Below are positions 15,256 to 22,876 of a stretch of 64,000 nucleotides of DNA, piece after piece; the stretch's first letter is position 1, and each line of letters starts with the position of its first letter. Both the position numbers and the translations under genes were made by a program. Source of the stretch: Candidatus Gastranaerophilales bacterium (GTDB lineage Bacteria > Cyanobacteriota > Vampirovibrionia > Gastranaerophilales > Gastranaerophilaceae); contig CALUVL010000005.1 of assembly GCA_944324225.1 (NCBI GenBank), forward strand, positions 1-64,000, read 5' to 3'. The notes under the pieces are model-generated. The model was not told the DNA's origin. It saw nothing but the letters and a program-made list of their open reading frames with translations, and made no database searches.

Positions 15256-15837
15256 TTACCAGTCATAAGAACCGTATTTTTTATACAAATCTATTGTATG
15301 CTCAATTTTATGTTCAACGGATGCTATTTTCTTATGTACATCCGGATCATTCGTTTTTTGCTTTAGAAGTTTCAATTCTAAAAGATCTTCCTTTGCTTTG
15401 CGAACACGCTGTTTAGCATTTTCTCTTTCCATAAAAAGCCAGCCTTCAAATCCGCATCCAGGAGGCACAATAGACCATGGTGTTGAAGGACAATGACGGC
15501 ATAAAACAGGTCGCTCCTCATAAATTGAACACTTATTATTATCCAGAAGATATTTACAACCATAAAAAGTTAATTTACCTTCTTTATAATTACCGTCTTC
15601 CTTCAAAAGCGCAATAACGTTGTCTACAACACCGGCATCAACTTTTCTGGCTTCTTCAATAGATGGGTATGGCACGAAAATTCTTAAAAATTCGCATGCT
15701 CCTTCATCATTTTCAGCCTGAAGTTTTAACAATTCTTCGTAAGGTTTGGATGTTGTAACAACTCTGCAACACCGTCCACACATATTACAAAGTTCCTGCG
15801 GTCTACGAGCAAGATATGTATCTTCATAATTTCCCAT
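15256..15837 (-). CDS. YkgJ-type cysteine cluster protein
   Basis: 193 aa, cytoplasmic. The N-terminal CNMCGRCC (Cys17, 20, 23, 24) and the later Cys groups (YGCKYLLDNNKCSIYEERP, then CRHCPSTPW) are the hallmarks of the YkgJ / UPF0153 family, thought to bind a metal, zinc or an iron-sulfur cluster. The C-terminal third is a charged helix. A second member is at 21276. Biochemical function is not established for the family. It is a single gene with a divergent neighbour. Confidence 0.82.
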   Translation of the reverse strand: MGNYEDTYLARRPQELCNMCGRCCRVVTTSKPYEELLKLQAENDEGACEFLRIFVPYPSIEEARKVDAGVVDNVIALLKEDGNYKEGKLTFYGCKYLLDNNKCSIYEERPVLCRHCPSTPWSIVPPGCGFEGWLFMERENAKQRVRKAKEDLLELKLLKQKTNDPDVHKKIASVEHKIEHTIDLYKKYGSYDW

Positions 15838-15967: not shown

Positions 15968-16909
15968 ATGACATCAGTACAAAATCATGGAAACCAGCAA
16001 ATACAAACAATTCCGACGCAGGTGAAGACAACCCAGGCACAACAAGCACAACAGGCTCCTGCACAAGTTATTCAACCACCACCGCTGGTTGCTCCGAACA
16101 ATTATACAACAACTCCCGCAGCGCAAACTGCGCCTCCGCCGAGTTATGCCGGAGTAAATATTCAAATATACAATCCCTCTGTTGGTATTCCTAATATCAA
16201 CCCGACTGGCAATATGCCTCAATCTCAGTCTCTCCCGGGAATTGCCTACCCCTCAAACTATTACACTCAAAATTACGGACTTCCACAGGGAGGAATTGTC
16301 GCACAGGGCGGTCAGGGCGGAAATGCAACAATTAATAATTATGCCGGAGTGCCCTCCGATGGTTCCGCAAATGGAAACAACAAGGCTTTAACAGACAATA
16401 ATTCGACAGCAAATAATACCAATAACAGTGAAAATTCATCAACTATAACAACAATGGCAACAACGACCAAAGAAACAAACGAAACAACAAAAAACGAAAC
16501 AAAGAAAAAAACAGAAAAAAGAAAAGTCGTTGAACTAACTGATGAATATATCAAGAATCTTGAAAACTACCTGAACAGTCAAGACAAAGAAGTCAGAATG
16601 ATGGGTGCAAAAGAAGTAATTGCACGGCTGCAGGAAGATGACAGCCGAAAAGACGACCCTGCACTCACAGCATTAATCAATAAAATGCTTCAGGATCCCT
16701 CGCAGGAAATAAGAATTCTTGCCTTGAGCATGCTGGATTCCCGAACCTGCACAGGAAACGATTACACTGTGAACGTTTTGAAAAAGATGCAGAATTCACA
16801 GACCGGCTACGGACAGGACGCAATGCAGGCAACCAATATTCTTCTCAAAATGTCAGGCAACGTAGTGGAAAAAGAATTTGAAGTTCCTGAAAACTCCGCG
16901 AAAAAATAA
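15968..16909 (+). CDS. protein with long disordered N-terminus and HEAT-like C-terminal domain
   Basis: 313 aa, no signal peptide. Residues 1-185 are low-complexity, rich in Gln, Pro, Asn and Thr, ending in a Lys/Glu/Thr run (KETNETTKNETKKKTEKRK). Residues about 192-300 form helices with HEAT/armadillo character: YIKNLENYLNSQDKEVRMMG, ALTALINKMLQDPSQEIRIL. HEAT repeats mediate protein contacts, so this looks like an adaptor or scaffold with a flexible tether. It is followed 11 bp later by the membrane protein gene at 16921, most likely in the same operon. Not recognised as a named family. Confidence 0.65.
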   Translation: MTSVQNHGNQQIQTIPTQVKTTQAQQAQQAPAQVIQPPPLVAPNNYTTTPAAQTAPPPSYAGVNIQIYNPSVGIPNINPTGNMPQSQSLPGIAYPSNYYTQNYGLPQGGIVAQGGQGGNATINNYAGVPSDGSANGNNKALTDNNSTANNTNNSENSSTITTMATTTKETNETTKNETKKKTEKRKVVELTDEYIKNLENYLNSQDKEVRMMGAKEVIARLQEDDSRKDDPALTALINKMLQDPSQEIRILALSMLDSRTCTGNDYTVNVLKKMQNSQTGYGQDAMQATNILLKMSGNVVEKEFEVPENSAKK

Positions 16910-16920
16910 GGTTTTAGATT

Positions 16921-17385
16921 ATGAGTATAGTAAGCGCAGTAAAAAACAATTATGGTAAATATATAGCAAAAGGTGTCGGCGCACTCGGGCTGGGGCTTGT
17001 GCTGCGTGATGCGCACAATATCGGAAAACTTCAGGCTGACGTTACATCTCAAACAATAGACGGAGATGTAAGCATGGATTTGTTTGAAAACTCTCAGCGT
17101 CTGGATTCTCCAAGCCTTTTAAAAAGTGAAGTTAAAGATAAAATTTTCAAATGGCAGCTCGGAAGCAACTTCTTAAGTTTCTTTAATTCTGCCGCCGGAT
17201 ATTTTTCGGGATTATTCTCAATGATGGCTGAAAGTGTAGTTCCTCTTGGCCTGTCAGCGGTTGCTCTGCTTGCTAAAGGCAAAAAACTTGCCTGCGGAAG
17301 CGCAATCGGTCTTGCAGCTTATGCCGGCCTCAGTCTGATTAAAGACGGCTTTGGAATCGGCTCGCCCAAGTACCTGAGGAAATAG
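16921..17385 (+). CDS. unknown membrane-associated protein
   Basis: 154 aa. An amphipathic/hydrophobic segment at about 12-30 (YIAKGVGALGLGLVLRDAH) and two Gly/Ala-rich hydrophobic stretches at about 85-112 and 120-140 suggest membrane association. No family recognised. It is probably co-expressed with the HEAT-like protein upstream (11-bp spacer). It ends 13 bp from the convergent trmD gene. Confidence 0.6.
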   Translation: MSIVSAVKNNYGKYIAKGVGALGLGLVLRDAHNIGKLQADVTSQTIDGDVSMDLFENSQRLDSPSLLKSEVKDKIFKWQLGSNFLSFFNSAAGYFSGLFSMMAESVVPLGLSAVALLAKGKKLACGSAIGLAAYAGLSLIKDGFGIGSPKYLRK

Positions 17386-17398
17386 CCGCAGTTTAATT

Positions 17399-18070
17399 TT
17401 ACTTTAACAAATCAGGACGCTTAAGTCGTGTTCTTATGAGTCTTTGCTGATTGCGGAACTCGGTAATTTCCTTATGATTCCCGTTCAAAAGCACTTCTGG
17501 AACCCTCAACCCCCTGAATTCTCTCGGTTTTGTATATTGCGGATACTCAAGAAGACCGTCTGAAAAACTGTCATCTTCCGCACTTTCTATCTTGCCGAGA
17601 GTCCCCTCTAATTTACGACTGACTGCATCAATCAGACAAAGTGCCGGTAACTCTCCTCCTGTCAAAACGAAATCTCCAAGCGAAATTTCTCTGGGCTTTA
17701 TAATATCCCTTATTCTTTCATCAAACCCCTCATAATGTCCGCAAAGACAAATAATCTGGTCATATTGCGCAAGCTCTTTTACAATCTTTTCGCACATAGG
17801 CTCGCCCTGCGGTGAAAGCATTATCGTAACAGAATTTCCGACATGCTCTACGCTTTCGTAAGCCTCGACATAAGGCTGCGGCATCAAAACCATTCCGGCT
17901 CCGCCGCCGTAAGGGGTATCATCAACTTTTCTGTGCCTGTCATGGGTAAAATGACGGGGGTTTATTGTATTAACCTCAATCACACCGGCCGCAATTGCAC
18001 GTTTTAGAATACTATATGAACAGTGGGTTTCTATCATTTCCGGAAACAAAGTCAAAACATCAAATCTCAT
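17399..18070 (-). CDS. trmD: tRNA (guanine37-N1)-methyltransferase TrmD
   Basis: Methylates G37 next to the anticodon in tRNAs reading CNN/GGG codons, preventing +1 frameshifts. At 223 aa it is at the short end of the usual 230-250. Trefoil-knot SAM-binding signatures are present: DDTPYGGGAGMVL, LCGHYEGFDERI, GDFVLTGGELP, and the ending YTKPREFRGLRVPEVL with NGNHKEI. The ATG overlaps the rimM stop by 4 bp. The usual downstream rplS is absent; a convergent gene follows instead. Confidence 0.96.
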   Translation of the reverse strand: MRFDVLTLFPEMIETHCSYSILKRAIAAGVIEVNTINPRHFTHDRHRKVDDTPYGGGAGMVLMPQPYVEAYESVEHVGNSVTIMLSPQGEPMCEKIVKELAQYDQIICLCGHYEGFDERIRDIIKPREISLGDFVLTGGELPALCLIDAVSRKLEGTLGKIESAEDDSFSDGLLEYPQYTKPREFRGLRVPEVLLNGNHKEITEFRNQQRLIRTRLKRPDLLK

Positions 18071-18579
18071 TCCAGAAGCCCCGCAATATTGTTTATTGTA
18101 ATCTTTTTTTCCTTAAGACTTACATCTGTCACTATGGCCTTTACAAATGGCACAAGCGACACATTCTTAGACTTAGTTTTGACTGAAAGTAAATCCGTTG
18201 CTCCGTTATTTGAAACACCGATTACAAACCCTACTTTTTCTCCTTTTTCGTCCACAACATCAAGCCCGACAAGCTCATCTATCAAAAATTCGTCTTCTTC
18301 AAGAGCTTCTCTTATCGTATTTTCTTCGACAAAAAGCAGACTCCCTTTATAATCGAGAAGTTCATCAATAGAATTTATACCATCAAACTTTACTATGGCA
18401 AAATTCTTGTGAAGACGCACGCTTTTTATCTTAAGCGGAGCATATTCATCATGATTTTTAACAAAAACTTCTTTCAACCCGCAAAAGAACTCTTCCTGAT
18501 TTCGAGAAAAGCCCACTTTAGCTTCCCCTTGAATACCATGAAAATTCAAAATCTTTCCGACAGAAATAAATTTTGTCAT
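18067..18579 (-). CDS. rimM: 16S rRNA processing protein RimM
   Basis: Assists maturation of the 30S subunit head, binding ribosomal protein S19. It is 170 aa, the usual length. The N-terminal RimM barrel starts FISVGKILNFHGIQGEAKVG, and the PRC-barrel C-terminal half contains DELVGLDVVDEKGEKVG and VPFVKAIVTDVSLKEKKI. It overlaps both neighbours by 4 bp (upstream zinc-ribbon gene and downstream trmD), a tight translational-coupling arrangement. Confidence 0.95.
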   Translation of the reverse strand: MTKFISVGKILNFHGIQGEAKVGFSRNQEEFFCGLKEVFVKNHDEYAPLKIKSVRLHKNFAIVKFDGINSIDELLDYKGSLLFVEENTIREALEEDEFLIDELVGLDVVDEKGEKVGFVIGVSNNGATDLLSVKTKSKNVSLVPFVKAIVTDVSLKEKKITINNIAGLLE

Positions 18580-19673
18580 GACTCAGCCGGTTCTTCAACC
18601 TTTTTAGGCTTTCTGCCACGCTTTGGCTTTTCCTCCGCAGCAGTTTCAGTTTCCGGCTCAACCGGGGCTGCATCTTGAACAGGTTCCTGTGCATCATCAG
18701 AAGCATCTGAATTAGCAACTTCCTCAGCCGCTTTTTTAGCAGCCTTTTCTGCCGCTTTCGCTGCGGCTTTGGCTTCTGCTGCAGCCTGATGCTCTTCCAT
18801 TTTCTTTTTAAATTCTTCCGGAATATCGGTACGATCCTGATTCCATCTCTGCAATCCCATTTGCGAACGGATTAAGCCGATACCTACGTGAACTCTCCAC
18901 TCATCCATTTTCAACTGTGCTGCTATTATCTTGTGACACCCAATAGGCGGAAGTGGCAACAGAGGCTCATACAGGTTTTTGATTGCAAAAAGCTGATCCG
19001 GTGAAATCGCAAGTTTACGTTTCGGGAACGGAAGTTTTGGAAGCATCAACTTTTGTCTTACGAGATTGATCCCAAAAAATACTTTTCTTGGTTCAATTCC
19101 GATTTTTTCAGCAATAACTTCATGTGCATCCGGATTTGGAAGCGGAAGCATAGCTTTATAAAGCAATTCAATTTGTTCAAGCTGTTCTTTACTTACTAAA
19201 AGCTGTTTTGGAGCTTTCGGCTTGCCTCCCGGTCTTCTGTTGTTAAATCTGTTATTTCCCTGCGGACGACGGTTGTTAAATCTGTTGTTATAACCGCCCT
19301 GCTGTGGTCTTTGATTGTTGCGGCGCTGATTATAGCCGCCCTGATTTCTGTTATAACCGCCCTGACGGTTGTTATCACGTCTGTAGCCGCCCTGATTGTT
19401 ATAATTGCGCTGCTGCGGTCTGCGATATCCCTGATTATCATTTCCGCCGCTTGAATAACTGCTGTAGAATTGCGGTTTATCTTCGGTGCTGTAGCTTCTT
19501 AAAGCCTGTTCATTATCTGATGAAGACTGAGATGAGGCAACGATATCGCCTCCGTCTGCTGATGGATTAATCATCATTTTTTTATCAGGATACAAACAAT
19601 CCGGACATATTACTCTTTTGGGGTTTTTCGTCTCAAATTCACGCCCGCATTTAACGCACTTGTTTACATACAT
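18576..19673 (-). CDS. zinc-ribbon, RG-rich protein with two ~60-aa repeats and AT-hook-like tail
   Basis: 365 aa, not recognised as a named family. Order of parts: a CxxC...CxxC zinc ribbon (Cys6, 9, 23, 26); a linker; a stretch at about 80-152 dominated by Gly, Arg, Asn, Gln and Tyr (YNRNQGGYNQRR type), like RGG/RNA-binding segments; two tandem repeats at about 158-218 and 221-278 sharing QL..I..LY..LLPLP....H..IA and V..GI.L.R; an Ala/Lys/Glu coiled coil at about 286-320; an acidic tail; and KRGRKPKK (350-357), an AT-hook-like motif. It is the first gene of an operon with rimM and trmD, where rpsP or an RNA-binding protein often sits. A nucleic-acid-binding role in translation or ribosome assembly is inferred. 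Confidence 0.75.
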   Translation of the reverse strand: MYVNKCVKCGREFETKNPKRVICPDCLYPDKKMMINPSADGGDIVASSQSSSDNEQALRSYSTEDKPQFYSSYSSGGNDNQGYRRPQQRNYNNQGGYRRDNNRQGGYNRNQGGYNQRRNNQRPQQGGYNNRFNNRRPQGNNRFNNRRPGGKPKAPKQLLVSKEQLEQIELLYKAMLPLPNPDAHEVIAEKIGIEPRKVFFGINLVRQKLMLPKLPFPKRKLAISPDQLFAIKNLYEPLLPLPPIGCHKIIAAQLKMDEWRVHVGIGLIRSQMGLQRWNQDRTDIPEEFKKKMEEHQAAAEAKAAAKAAEKAAKKAAEEVANSDASDDAQEPVQDAAPVEPETETAAEEKPKRGRKPKKVEEPAES

Positions 19674-19817
19674 ATTGAAAGCCTCTTAATTTGAAAAAAT
19701 AATTGCATAATAAAAAATCGATTTAAAAAATTACTCCTCGGTAATAATATAAATATCAATATACTTAATATTCATATATTAACACATGTACAAAATATTT
19801 GCAAGTATGAATATTTT

Positions 19818-20255
19818 TTATTTTTCAACCAGAAACGTAACCGGCCCGTCATTAACAAGTGAAACATCCATCATAGCGCGGAATTTGCCTGTTTCTATCT
19901 TCAATCCTGATGCTTTAAGATTTTTGACAAAATCTTCATATAATTTGTTTGCAAATTCTGGTGCCGCAGCACTATCAAAACTCGGACGGGTCCCCTTACG
20001 GCAATCTGCACAAAGCGTAAACTGCGATACCACAAGGATTTCCCCGGAAACATCCTGTATTGAAAAATTCATTTTTTCGTTTTCGTCTTCAAATATTCTT
20101 AAATTTAGCAGTTTTTGTGCTAATTTTTCGGCATTTTCAACTGTATCAGACTTTTCTACACCTAACAACACAAGCATGCCCGTATCAATAGACGAATACA
20201 ATTTACCTTCTATTGCAACCGAAGCATTTTTAACTCTTTGAATCAGTGCTTTCAT
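19818..20255 (-). CDS. dtd: D-aminoacyl-tRNA deacylase Dtd
   Basis: Hydrolyses D-amino acids (and glycine mischarged on tRNA-Ala) from tRNA, protecting translation. It is 145 aa from the ATG at 20255, the standard length. Signatures: MKALIQRVKNASVAIEG at the start, SQFTLCADCRKGTRPSF in the middle, and the cross-subunit Gly-Pro motif NDGPVTF near the end. An in-frame TTG four codons upstream lies directly on the AGGAAAGG site, so the ATG is preferred. The start lies inside the 3' end of rlmN (26-bp overlap). Confidence 0.94.
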   Translation of the reverse strand: MKALIQRVKNASVAIEGKLYSSIDTGMLVLLGVEKSDTVENAEKLAQKLLNLRIFEDENEKMNFSIQDVSGEILVVSQFTLCADCRKGTRPSFDSAAAPEFANKLYEDFVKNLKASGLKIETGKFRAMMDVSLVNDGPVTFLVEK

Positions 20256-21279
20256 TTTGTTTTTCAACCTTTCCTCTTAACTGCCCGCAAGCCGCGTCTA
20301 TATCTGCACCGCGTTCCAGCCGAACAGTTACCTTCTTGCCTGAGTGTTCAAGTAAATATTTGAATTTTTGGATTGAATTGTTTGACGGACGCTGATAATC
20401 GTTCTTTGCAACAGGATTATAAGGGATTAAATTTATATTGCATTTGATATCGTGTAAATATCCTGCAAGCTCTTTAGCACATTCAACGGTATCGTTTAGA
20501 TCCTTTATTAACAGGTATTCTATCGTAATTCGTCTGCCGGTTTTGTCAACGTAGCTTTTCAGGGCCTTTTTCAATTGCGCCATGTCATACTTGTTCTCTA
20601 TCGGCATAATCCGTTTTCTGATTTCATGGTTCGGCGCATGCAGGGAAAGCGCAAGCGTTGACTGCATATCATTCTCCGCAAGTTTATAAATCTGCGGGAC
20701 AATTCCACTTGTGGAAACAGTAATTCTTCTTGCTCCTATCTGGAAACTGTCATTGAAGATTTCCATAGCCTTTAGAACGTTATCAAGGTTCAAAAGCGGT
20801 TCACCCTGCCCCATAAAGACTATATTTGTAACTTTCAGCCCCGTATCCCTTTGTATTGTCAATACTTGTTCTATAATCTCTTTATACGTAAGATTTCGGA
20901 TAAAGCCACGCTTTCCTGTTGCGCAAAAAGAACAATTAACAGCACATCCGATTTGTGAACTTACGCAGGCCGTGAGGTTTGCCCGATTGTCGAACCTCAT
21001 CAGCACAGTTTCCACGCACTCGCCGTCTGGATATTCTATTAAATATTTAATTGTTCCGTCTTTGCTTACCTGTTTAACTTTGACCTTGACATCACTCACG
21101 CAGGCAATTTGCTTTAATTCCATCCTGAATTTTGCGGACAAATCTGTCATATCATCAATCGACTTGACTGATTTCAAATAAATCCAGTTATGAATCTGGC
21201 GGGCTCTGAATTTTGATGCTTTTAAACCATCGGTTATTTCTTCTATTTCTTTTAAACTTAGCCCTGATAATACTTTCAT
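20230..21279 (-). CDS. rlmN: dual-specificity 23S rRNA A2503 / tRNA A37 C2-methyltransferase RlmN
   Basis: Radical-SAM enzyme that methylates C2 of adenosine 2503 in 23S rRNA and A37 of some tRNAs. It is 349 aa. The radical-SAM cluster motif is in GCAVNCSFCATG, preceded by ACVSSQIG; FMGQGEPLLN is the SAM-binding GEP motif; the ending has VTVRLERGADIDAACGQL, whose Cys is the transient methyl-carrying partner. The start overlaps the upstream Cys-cluster gene by 4 bp, so ykgJ-like, rlmN and dtd form one operon. Confidence 0.96.
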   Translation of the reverse strand: MKVLSGLSLKEIEEITDGLKASKFRARQIHNWIYLKSVKSIDDMTDLSAKFRMELKQIACVSDVKVKVKQVSKDGTIKYLIEYPDGECVETVLMRFDNRANLTACVSSQIGCAVNCSFCATGKRGFIRNLTYKEIIEQVLTIQRDTGLKVTNIVFMGQGEPLLNLDNVLKAMEIFNDSFQIGARRITVSTSGIVPQIYKLAENDMQSTLALSLHAPNHEIRKRIMPIENKYDMAQLKKALKSYVDKTGRRITIEYLLIKDLNDTVECAKELAGYLHDIKCNINLIPYNPVAKNDYQRPSNNSIQKFKYLLEHSGKKVTVRLERGADIDAACGQLRGKVEKQNESTDSKS

Positions 21280-21953
21280 AAATTCACCGAAATTTTATCT
21301 TTGTAATATTCCACAACCTCAATCATAGCATGAAGAAGCAAAACTGTATCTTCCGTTTTTTCTCTCCACCTGCAGAACCCGCAGGAAGAAGGCAATATAC
21401 ACAAAGGATTGTCCGGAAAATCACGGCAAATTTGCGGACGATTTTCATAATCCGAACATCTTTTATCTTCTGTAAGCTTTGGACAATGATAAAAATAAAC
21501 TTCATCTTCCTTATTTGCTTCCAAAAGTGCAATATATTCCGGATAAACCTTCCTTGCATCTTCTTTAGATCCATAAGGAATAAAAACGCTCAAAAACTGA
21601 CGGGCAAAATTATCTCCGCTATCAGCCCGCTTTTGAAGTTCTGCCGGCGAAAATTCACTGCAGGCAAGATTACAGCAGGTTGCACAGCCTGTACAGCTAT
21701 ACCCTTTTCGCTCTGCTAACACATCCTGAAACTTTAAATATATGTCTTTTGAAACTTTATTTTCCAGAATATTCAAAAATTCAACCTGCCATTTTCTGCC
21801 ATCGCTGCCTTCTTCAAACCTTGAAAAAATATCATTAGAAACATTTTCCGGCTTTATTCTGTCTGCAAGCTTTTGAATTTCTGCGGCAGAAAACTTAAAC
21901 TTTTCTCTGAATTTGGTACGCTGTTTTTCAACAAGGGTATTCAAGTCACTCAT
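21276..21953 (-). CDS. YkgJ-type cysteine cluster protein
   Basis: 225 aa, second YkgJ-family member. After a charged helical N-terminus, CTGCATCCNLAC supplies the CxxCxxCC motif at about 97-104; further groups are CPKLTEDKRCSDYENRP, ICRDFPDNPLC and SSCGFCRW. A metal or Fe-S site is likely. It is first in the operon with rlmN, itself a radical-SAM Fe-S enzyme, and overlaps it by 4 bp, so a role linked to that enzyme is worth considering; this is inference from context only. Confidence 0.8.
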   Translation of the reverse strand: MSDLNTLVEKQRTKFREKFKFSAAEIQKLADRIKPENVSNDIFSRFEEGSDGRKWQVEFLNILENKVSKDIYLKFQDVLAERKGYSCTGCATCCNLACSEFSPAELQKRADSGDNFARQFLSVFIPYGSKEDARKVYPEYIALLEANKEDEVYFYHCPKLTEDKRCSDYENRPQICRDFPDNPLCILPSSCGFCRWREKTEDTVLLLHAMIEVVEYYKDKISVNL

Positions 21954-22111: not shown

Positions 22112-22876
22112 CTACTCTTCATTACCATACATTGTTTTATATGCGTAATCTATTTTTTTATCCATTATATTTTCGCCTGATTGGTCAAGGATGTACATAT
22201 TTGCATAGTATGAAGTTGAATCAATTGCACCGTTTGCAACATTGTTTTCATTAAAATCCATTGCGTAATAGAATGCAGACATTTCTTTTTCTGATATTAC
22301 ACCGTCACCGTCATGGTCTAAACGATTGAAAATATTGTTATTTGAATCTTCCATCGATTTTATCTGCGCATCAGAAAGTCCCTCGTTCTGGAATTTCATA
22401 AAGGCTTCTTTGCTGATGGTTTCACTGCCGTCGCCGTATTTTGCTGAAATAAATTTTGTCATTGACCCGCCAAGCTTTTGAAAACCTGCACTTAGCGCAG
22501 ACATCATTTGCTGAGTTTCCTCAGGAGTCCTATTCGTCTTTGTCATCAATGCGGATATGTCATCTGAAATTACCGAAATTTTTACATCCTGAGCATTCAT
22601 CATTCTATTAAATAAATTATTAGCAATTTCACCTGTTCTAAGATTGCCTTCTGCAGGAGTATTGGCAACAATATTTGCAGAACTAGCACTTGAGGCTGAT
22701 GTTGGAACTTCCTGCACCGTACTTGATTTAGAAACTGACTTTCCAGCAATAGCATTTGCAAGCTTTCCAATTCCATCAGTAAACGTCTTCATTCCACTAG
22801 CAAGCGGATCTGTTTGTGTCTGCTGCGGACCTCTAACGTATGGATTATTATTCATCCAGGATATACCAAATGCCAT
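22112..22876 (-). CDS. EF-hand calcium-binding-like protein
   Basis: 254 aa, no signal peptide. The N-terminal half is low-complexity (Ser/Ala/Thr-rich, with PQQTQTDPLASG). A helical segment at about 90-140 follows. A canonical EF-hand loop DHDGDGVISEKE sits at about 192-203, preceded by a helix (SMEDSNNNIFNRL) and followed by SAFYYAMDFNENN, which may be a degenerate second loop. It probably binds Ca2+. Partners unknown. It is monocistronic, with an ATG close to AT-rich upstream DNA and no clear strong RBS. Confidence 0.7.
   Translation of the reverse strand: MAFGISWMNNNPYVRGPQQTQTDPLASGMKTFTDGIGKLANAIAGKSVSKSSTVQEVPTSASSASSANIVANTPAEGNLRTGEIANNLFNRMMNAQDVKISVISDDISALMTKTNRTPEETQQMMSALSAGFQKLGGSMTKFISAKYGDGSETISKEAFMKFQNEGLSDAQIKSMEDSNNNIFNRLDHDGDGVISEKEMSAFYYAMDFNENNVANGAIDSTSYYANMYILDQSGENIMDKKIDYAYKTMYGNEE

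Follow-up and report, generated by a model that had tools for sequence, protein, structure and literature searches.

The window, a stretch of 64,000 nucleotides, encodes a 365-residue protein that is single-copy, found across its order and extremely conserved, and that has no curated Pfam or NCBIfam family. The genome belongs to a Candidatus Gastranaerophilales (Vampirovibrionia/Melainabacteria), gut bacteria that are relatives of the cyanobacteria, and is 1.93 Mb and 99% complete. Comparison of sequences establishes the anatomy, conservation and distribution of the protein, and the conservation of the leader ahead of its gene. We infer that DNA is its ligand and that it serves in the cell as a nucleoid or regulatory protein, a reading to which we give about an even chance.

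Anatomy of the gene and the protein

The open reading frame proposed in the first-pass annotation is present on the minus strand (Table 1), and the plus-strand frame over the same positions is full of stops. The tight packing described for its downstream side is also there, with 4-bp overlaps between the stop of the gene and the start of rimM (18576-18579) and between rimM and trmD (18067-18070); on the upstream side 144 bp separate dtd from the gene. Replacement of rpsP by this gene is ruled out, as the genome has rpsP on a separate contig (C4). The ribosomal protein S16 encoded there (L186, 1315-1692, minus strand) has an extra A/E/K-rich tail of about 40 residues, similar in composition to the C-terminal part of the 365-residue protein.

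Table 1. Features of the 365-residue protein gene, its leader and its neighbours (window positions; residues are those of the 365-residue protein)
Feature	Position	Strand	Remarks
365-residue protein gene	18576..19673	minus	ribbon and linker, followed by a pair of homeodomain-like HTH units, a helix and a basic tail
C4 zinc ribbon (predicted), residues 1-31	19581..19673	minus	N-terminal; MYVNKCxKCGxEFETKNPKRVICPxCLYPDK
Disordered linker (predicted), residues 35-147	19233..19571	minus	N/R/G/Q/Y-rich from about residue 75
HTH repeat 1 (predicted), residues 158-213	19035..19202	minus	helices 162-175, 183-191, 195-208
Basic linker PKRK and HTH repeat 2 (predicted), residues 214-278	18840..19034	minus	helices 225-238, 246-254, 258-272
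A/E/K-rich helix (predicted), residues 286-321	18711..18818	minus	AF2
AT-hook-like motif KRGRKPKK, residues 351-358	18600..18623	minus	C-terminal tail
rimM	18067..18579	minus	TIGR02273, 132.5 bits
trmD	17399..18070	minus	TIGR00088, 300.8 bits
dtd (D-aminoacyl-tRNA deacylase)	19818..20267	minus	TIGR00256, 203.6 bits; upstream neighbour of the gene
rlmN	21279-20230	minus	upstream of dtd
AATTAAGAGGCTT	19679..19691	minus	immediately ahead of the start codon; single occurrence in the genome, conserved in the family
GAGGAG	19734..19739	minus	second conserved leader element, upstream at variable distance
Promoter-like TTGCAA-17-TAATAT	19776..19804	minus	cTTGc-aa ... TGTTA-AAT in the orthologue alignment

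Several other genes accompany this cluster. Putative metal-chelating CxxCxxCC (PF03692) proteins flank it on both sides (15256-15837 and 21276-21953, both minus), the second gene ending 4 bp inside rlmN, and both are found again in about 36 of the 80 loci compared. A 254-residue protein with EF-hand-like calcium-binding motifs (DHDGDGVISEKE), odd company for the cluster, is encoded at 22112-22876 (minus). Two plus-strand genes (15968-16909 and 16921-17385) form a fast-evolving pair, with median identities of about 49% and 44%, whose convergent orientation to trmD is retained in about 40 of the 80 loci; the product of the first has a P/Q/N-rich N-terminus.

The CxxC-CxxC ribbon claimed in the first-pass annotation is spaced C6xxC9-x13-C23xxC26 and is invariant throughout the class, where 16 of the 34 ribbon columns, including all four cysteines, do not vary. 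AF2 models the region with a pLDDT of about 90 as two strands and a short helix; the pattern CxxC-x(n)-CxxC thus coincides with a predicted ribbon fold, and zinc binding is likewise predicted. The linker that follows, about 110 residues, has a pLDDT below 50 in the full-length AF2 model and is predicted to be disordered. Its Gly/Arg/Asn/Gln/Tyr-rich stretch, also noted at the outset, averages N 22%, R 17%, G 16%, Q 13% and Y 9% over 79 orthologues; the net charge of the linker is +0.18 per residue, and its length and sequence vary among orthologues.

Beyond the repeats, what had been described as a coiled coil is one predicted helix in the full-length AF2 model (residues 286-321), and the region after residue 321 is a disordered tail that carries, as claimed, KRGRKPKK close to the C-terminus. 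Counted in the gene's own family only, the tail motif reads RGRK in 56 of 79 members and RGRP (of the type KKKRGRPKK) in 15, together 71 of 79. The Pfam AT_hook profile (PF02178) scores 14.4 bits against a cut-off of 17.4 (E 0.034) in one orthologue (L087); the same scan of three other orthologues gave no match, one of these, with RGRP in its genome, possibly being cut before the tail.

Profile-profile comparison (profiles from 26 sequences) aligns the two repeats of about 60 residues that had been seen in the sequence across 56 columns at 36% identity and scores them 74.4, whereas 200 shuffles of the columns reached no more than 20.6. AlphaFold predicts the repeat region, with 46 eligible sequences, as two three-helix units (pLDDT 83.7, pTM 0.54), and both appear again in the full-length model. 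In the PDB, Foldseek ranks first 6m3d, with tandem engrailed homeodomains (prob 0.97), and 6e8c, the double homeodomain of DUX4 (prob 0.99), at weak E-values of 0.04-0.06. A second structural comparison gives Z 7.3 for DUX4 (3.6 Å over 109 residues) and Z 5.0-5.8 for single-HTH entries, values below 8 being such as a common arrangement can produce. Each repeat is therefore predicted to be a three-helix, homeodomain-like helix-turn-helix (HTH) unit, the pair reaching Z 7.3 and a unit by itself about 5, and the placing of the two units relative to each other is uncertain because of the weak Foldseek E-values and the pTM of 0.54. Basic residues are invariant at R49, K51, K61, R62, R103 and R112 (repeat numbering), and the exposed faces of the predicted recognition helices are partly hydrophobic (F43 and L47; V106, G109 and L110), in which they differ from those of classical homeodomains.

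Pfam and NCBIfam scans of the protein gave nothing above cut-off, and the suggestion that the repeat unit may be an undescribed domain stands in the sense that neither Pfam nor NCBIfam has a family for it. A match of the repeats to a known domain of unrelated function had been named beforehand as counting against the original proposal; the repeats resemble a known fold, the homeodomain-like HTH.

Whether the repeats are homeodomains in the strict sense can be judged from several comparisons. The Pfam Homeodomain profile (PF00046) gives the window protein 17.9 or 21.7 bits against a cut-off of 22.9; at E values of 1 or less it matches 22 of the 26 repeat regions, and when ten were scanned singly three exceeded 22.9 bits (L149, 28.5; L026, 23.2; L145, 23.0). 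The matched stretches stop at profile position 45-46, ahead of the WF-N-R recognition motif. A genome-wide control (24 genomes, 14 control genomes) yielded no homeodomain match over the cut-off and indicates that in bacteria a single match of about 15 bits lies at chance level. With hhalign the repeats score 15.5 and 15.8 against nine typed homeodomains, where the maxima of 200 shuffles are 15.4 and 15.6, at a probability of about 4%, and the one PDB sequence that the family profile matches belongs to a homeobox protein, with a chance-level E of 1.3. We regard the sequence support for the comparison as suggestive, not strong.

Like the tandem homeodomains of DUX4 (HD1-HD2) and engineered tandem engrailed, which are its best structural matches, the protein has two tandem three-helix units with a basic stretch before each, and of seven hallmark positions Q12, L16, F20 (as I/Y) and R53 have counterparts in both repeats. 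Unlike them, it has G, I and L in place of W48, F49 and N51; by eye, the equivalents of W48, F49, N51 and R53 are G44, I45, L47 and R49 in repeat 1 and G107, I108, L110 and R112 in repeat 2. It is also one residue longer from helix 1 to helix 3, and adds the zinc ribbon and the disordered linker. As the WF-N motif is missing, we reject homeodomain membership and term the repeats homeodomain-like. We found no eukaryotic relative. It is a long shot that the repeats are true, very ancient relatives of homeodomains, in which case this clade would keep a near-universal tandem-homeodomain/AT-hook/zinc-ribbon protein, chromatin-like in make-up and conserved to the grade of a ribosomal protein.

Distribution, conservation and gene order

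Of the 59 relatives, 51 carry the gene; restricted to near-complete genomes (at least 90% complete, at most 5% contamination), the count is 43 of 44. Class-wide 209 of 289 sampled genomes have it, the carriers being nearly all genomes of its own order together with families f9, f14 and f15; it was not found among the genomes listed for families f8 and f10-f13 or for the phylum's other classes. Within the phylum, as sampled, it is thus confined to some orders and families of Vampirovibrionia, and the first-pass annotation was right to call it lineage-specific. In a contig scan the best 80 of 239 confirmed matches carry titles of Gastranaerophilales/Melainabacteria, of cyanobacteria or merely of uncultured bacteria, the exceptions being two apparently mislabelled MAGs (L094 and L105). 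No relative of the protein turned up in the viral contigs and plasmids searched, and a mobile or phage gene is rejected as far as those collections show. Our literature search found no description of the protein in the papers that it covered.

Median identity to the window over 80 loci of the gene's family is 97% for the ribbon and 94% for the repeats, compared with 69% for RimM, 76% for TrmD, 70% for the D-aminoacyl-tRNA deacylase and 83% for RlmN (31 to 80 loci per gene). Beyond the order, 37 of the 121 columns of the repeats still show no variation. Presence in nearly all sampled members of a common gut order, together with conservation tighter than that of RimM, TrmD and RlmN, implies a basic role.

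In genomes without the repeats, a search with the ribbon gave weak matches only (E 0.01-0.09), the best of them in a MerR-like HTH family. This is a separate family of proteins (L201 and L202 in f13, L203 and L204 in f8; about 900-2000 of each locus) in which an N-terminal MerR-like HTH is followed by a low-complexity stretch, a ribbon CxTCxKxFEHxNPxLRDCLDCYRxKRKERR and a conserved basic C-terminal region.

The first-pass annotation had tied the gene to rimM-trmD, and hence to ribosome assembly, and had named conservation of this synteny as a test of the idea. The tie does not survive beyond the gene's own family. Within that family rimM lies directly downstream on the same strand in 80 of 80 loci and trmD is present in 79, the remaining contig being cut; outside it neither lies near the gene in any of 20 loci. 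Nineteen of these are informative, some with a short flank on one side at a contig end, and the other (L175, f3) is not, because trmD was not found anywhere in its genome. Where the sampled outside genomes contain both the gene and trmD, rimM adjoins trmD in five of six with the 365-residue gene elsewhere, and in the sixth, of family f14, tblastn did not recognise rimM. The gene instead follows dtd in one f4 and one f7 locus, and yebC in an f3 locus; in one f9 locus a Pfam scan identifies its divergent neighbours as serine dehydratase genes, and those of other f9 and f15 loci match these in size and order. The linkage is a derived arrangement at the level of the family, in place of the lineage-wide linkage to be looked for in an rpsP- or KhpA-like role, and being confined to one family it says little for a role shared with RimM and TrmD.

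The leader and the translation start

The leader (19674-19765 on the minus strand, plus the promoter-like element) reads in the order promoter-like element, GAGGAG and the TTAAGAGGCT ribosome-binding region, the last at a fixed position a few bases before the start codon. The promoter-like element scores under the cut-off of a consensus scan. Ten consecutive leader columns are at least 90% conserved, against one or two in five control genes, of which one is an exception with a six-column block that is a TATAAT box. The conservation of the TTAAGAGGCT region also far exceeds that of the neighbouring genes' start regions, and by eye several further families of the order have related forms (AAGGGGC) ahead of the gene. 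We found no conserved base pair in the leader RNA and no Rfam family. The leader looks like a specially tuned or regulated translation start, perhaps a self-controlled one, and binding of the leader by the 365-residue protein itself would be a guess. An element locked to the start codon hints at control through RNA rather than DNA.

Possible functions and known systems

That the protein binds nucleic acid, RNA in the first-pass annotation, is probable. A homeodomain-like HTH, a fold best known for DNA binding, together with an AT-hook-like tail leads us to favour DNA over rRNA. In the reading that we prefer, the tandem units would grip the double helix, with the basic PKRK linker and the arginines and lysines resembling R53/K55 touching the backbone and the RGRK/RGRP tail giving extra minor-groove affinity. 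The ribbon and the sticky disordered linker might make contacts or drive clustering, for instance with RNA polymerase or with other copies of the protein, which would act as a nucleoid-associated or broad regulator and probably control its own synthesis at translation through the TTAAGAGGCT region. The fold class, the invariant basic residues including PKRK, the tail in 71 of 79 family members and, by eye, the similar-looking ribbon within MerR-like HTH proteins of the sister families f8 and f13 all argue for DNA; against it stand the partly hydrophobic recognition helices, the AT-hook score below cut-off, the leader locked to the start codon, the chance-level single homeodomain matches and the profile scores barely above shuffles.

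It is possible, though we hold it less probable, that the protein is an RNA-binding translation or ribosome-assembly factor, a reading that we retain because the TTAAGAGGCT region is so unusually conserved. The units would then bind structured RNA in the manner of the L11 C-terminal domain, the RG/YGG-rich linker would add RNA affinity, and the protein's own mRNA would be repressed at the AAGAGGC element. The homeodomain-like folds of L11 and bicoid bind RNA, and the rRNA-binding L11 C-terminal domain is a precedent for a bacterial RNA-binding protein of this fold (PMC9638898), although it is a single copy in a core ribosomal protein whereas the window repeats are paired and different in sequence. 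The R/G/N/Y-rich, positively charged linker is like that of many RNA-binding proteins, the upstream neighbours dtd and rlmN, and yebC in the f3 locus, are translation-related, the ribosome-binding region is conserved over ten columns and unique in the genome, and the folded parts are more conserved than RimM, TrmD and RlmN. This has to be set against the AT-hook-like tail, the missing rimM-trmD link outside one family, Pfam and NCBIfam scans that detect no RNA-binding domain, and the serine dehydratase neighbours in f9 and f15, assigned by Pfam in one f9 locus and by size and order in the rest.

Rather unlikely is a role as a scaffold between proteins or as an accessory factor of RNA polymerase, in which little sequence would be recognised directly, ribbon and HTH would contact proteins (RNA polymerase, sigma or the ribosome) and the linker would drive clustering. 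Invariant hydrophobic residues on helix 3 of both repeats are consistent with it, HTH folds also act as protein-contact domains, and very high conservation of both folded parts is typical for contact with a conserved machine; the invariant basic residues of the repeats and linker and the AT-hook-like tail point instead to nucleic acid. Least probable to us is a functional partnership with RimM and TrmD, the operon reflecting a shared step of 30S maturation or tRNA modification: the constant pairing within the family speaks for it, but shared transcription suffices to explain that pairing, and in other families the gene lies away from rimM-trmD though both exist there.

Two further systems bear comparison with the DNA-binding protein that we propose. 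CarD of Myxococcus has AT-hooks, and the window protein differs from it in having, by Pfam scan, no CarD-type RNA-polymerase-interaction domain and at most one AT-hook-like motif. NCBIfam TIGR04272, a family of CxxC zinc-ribbon proteins with Gly/Arg-rich stretches from other phyla, shares the C4 ribbon and the RG-rich low-complexity sequence; the window ribbon, unlike theirs, is spaced x13 and not x17, and the NCBIfam scan gave no TIGR04272 match. We know of no HTH repeats in TIGR04272 proteins. CarD, for its part, is a bacterial global regulator that binds DNA via an HMGA-like region (PMC4374960).

The isolated repeat region, at 134 residues, is small and confidently predicted, and its binding is directly testable. 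If the protein is an RNA binder, it would be a new translation factor; if it is a chromosome organiser or regulator, as we favour, this clade would have a nucleoid protein of its own made of homeodomain-like parts.
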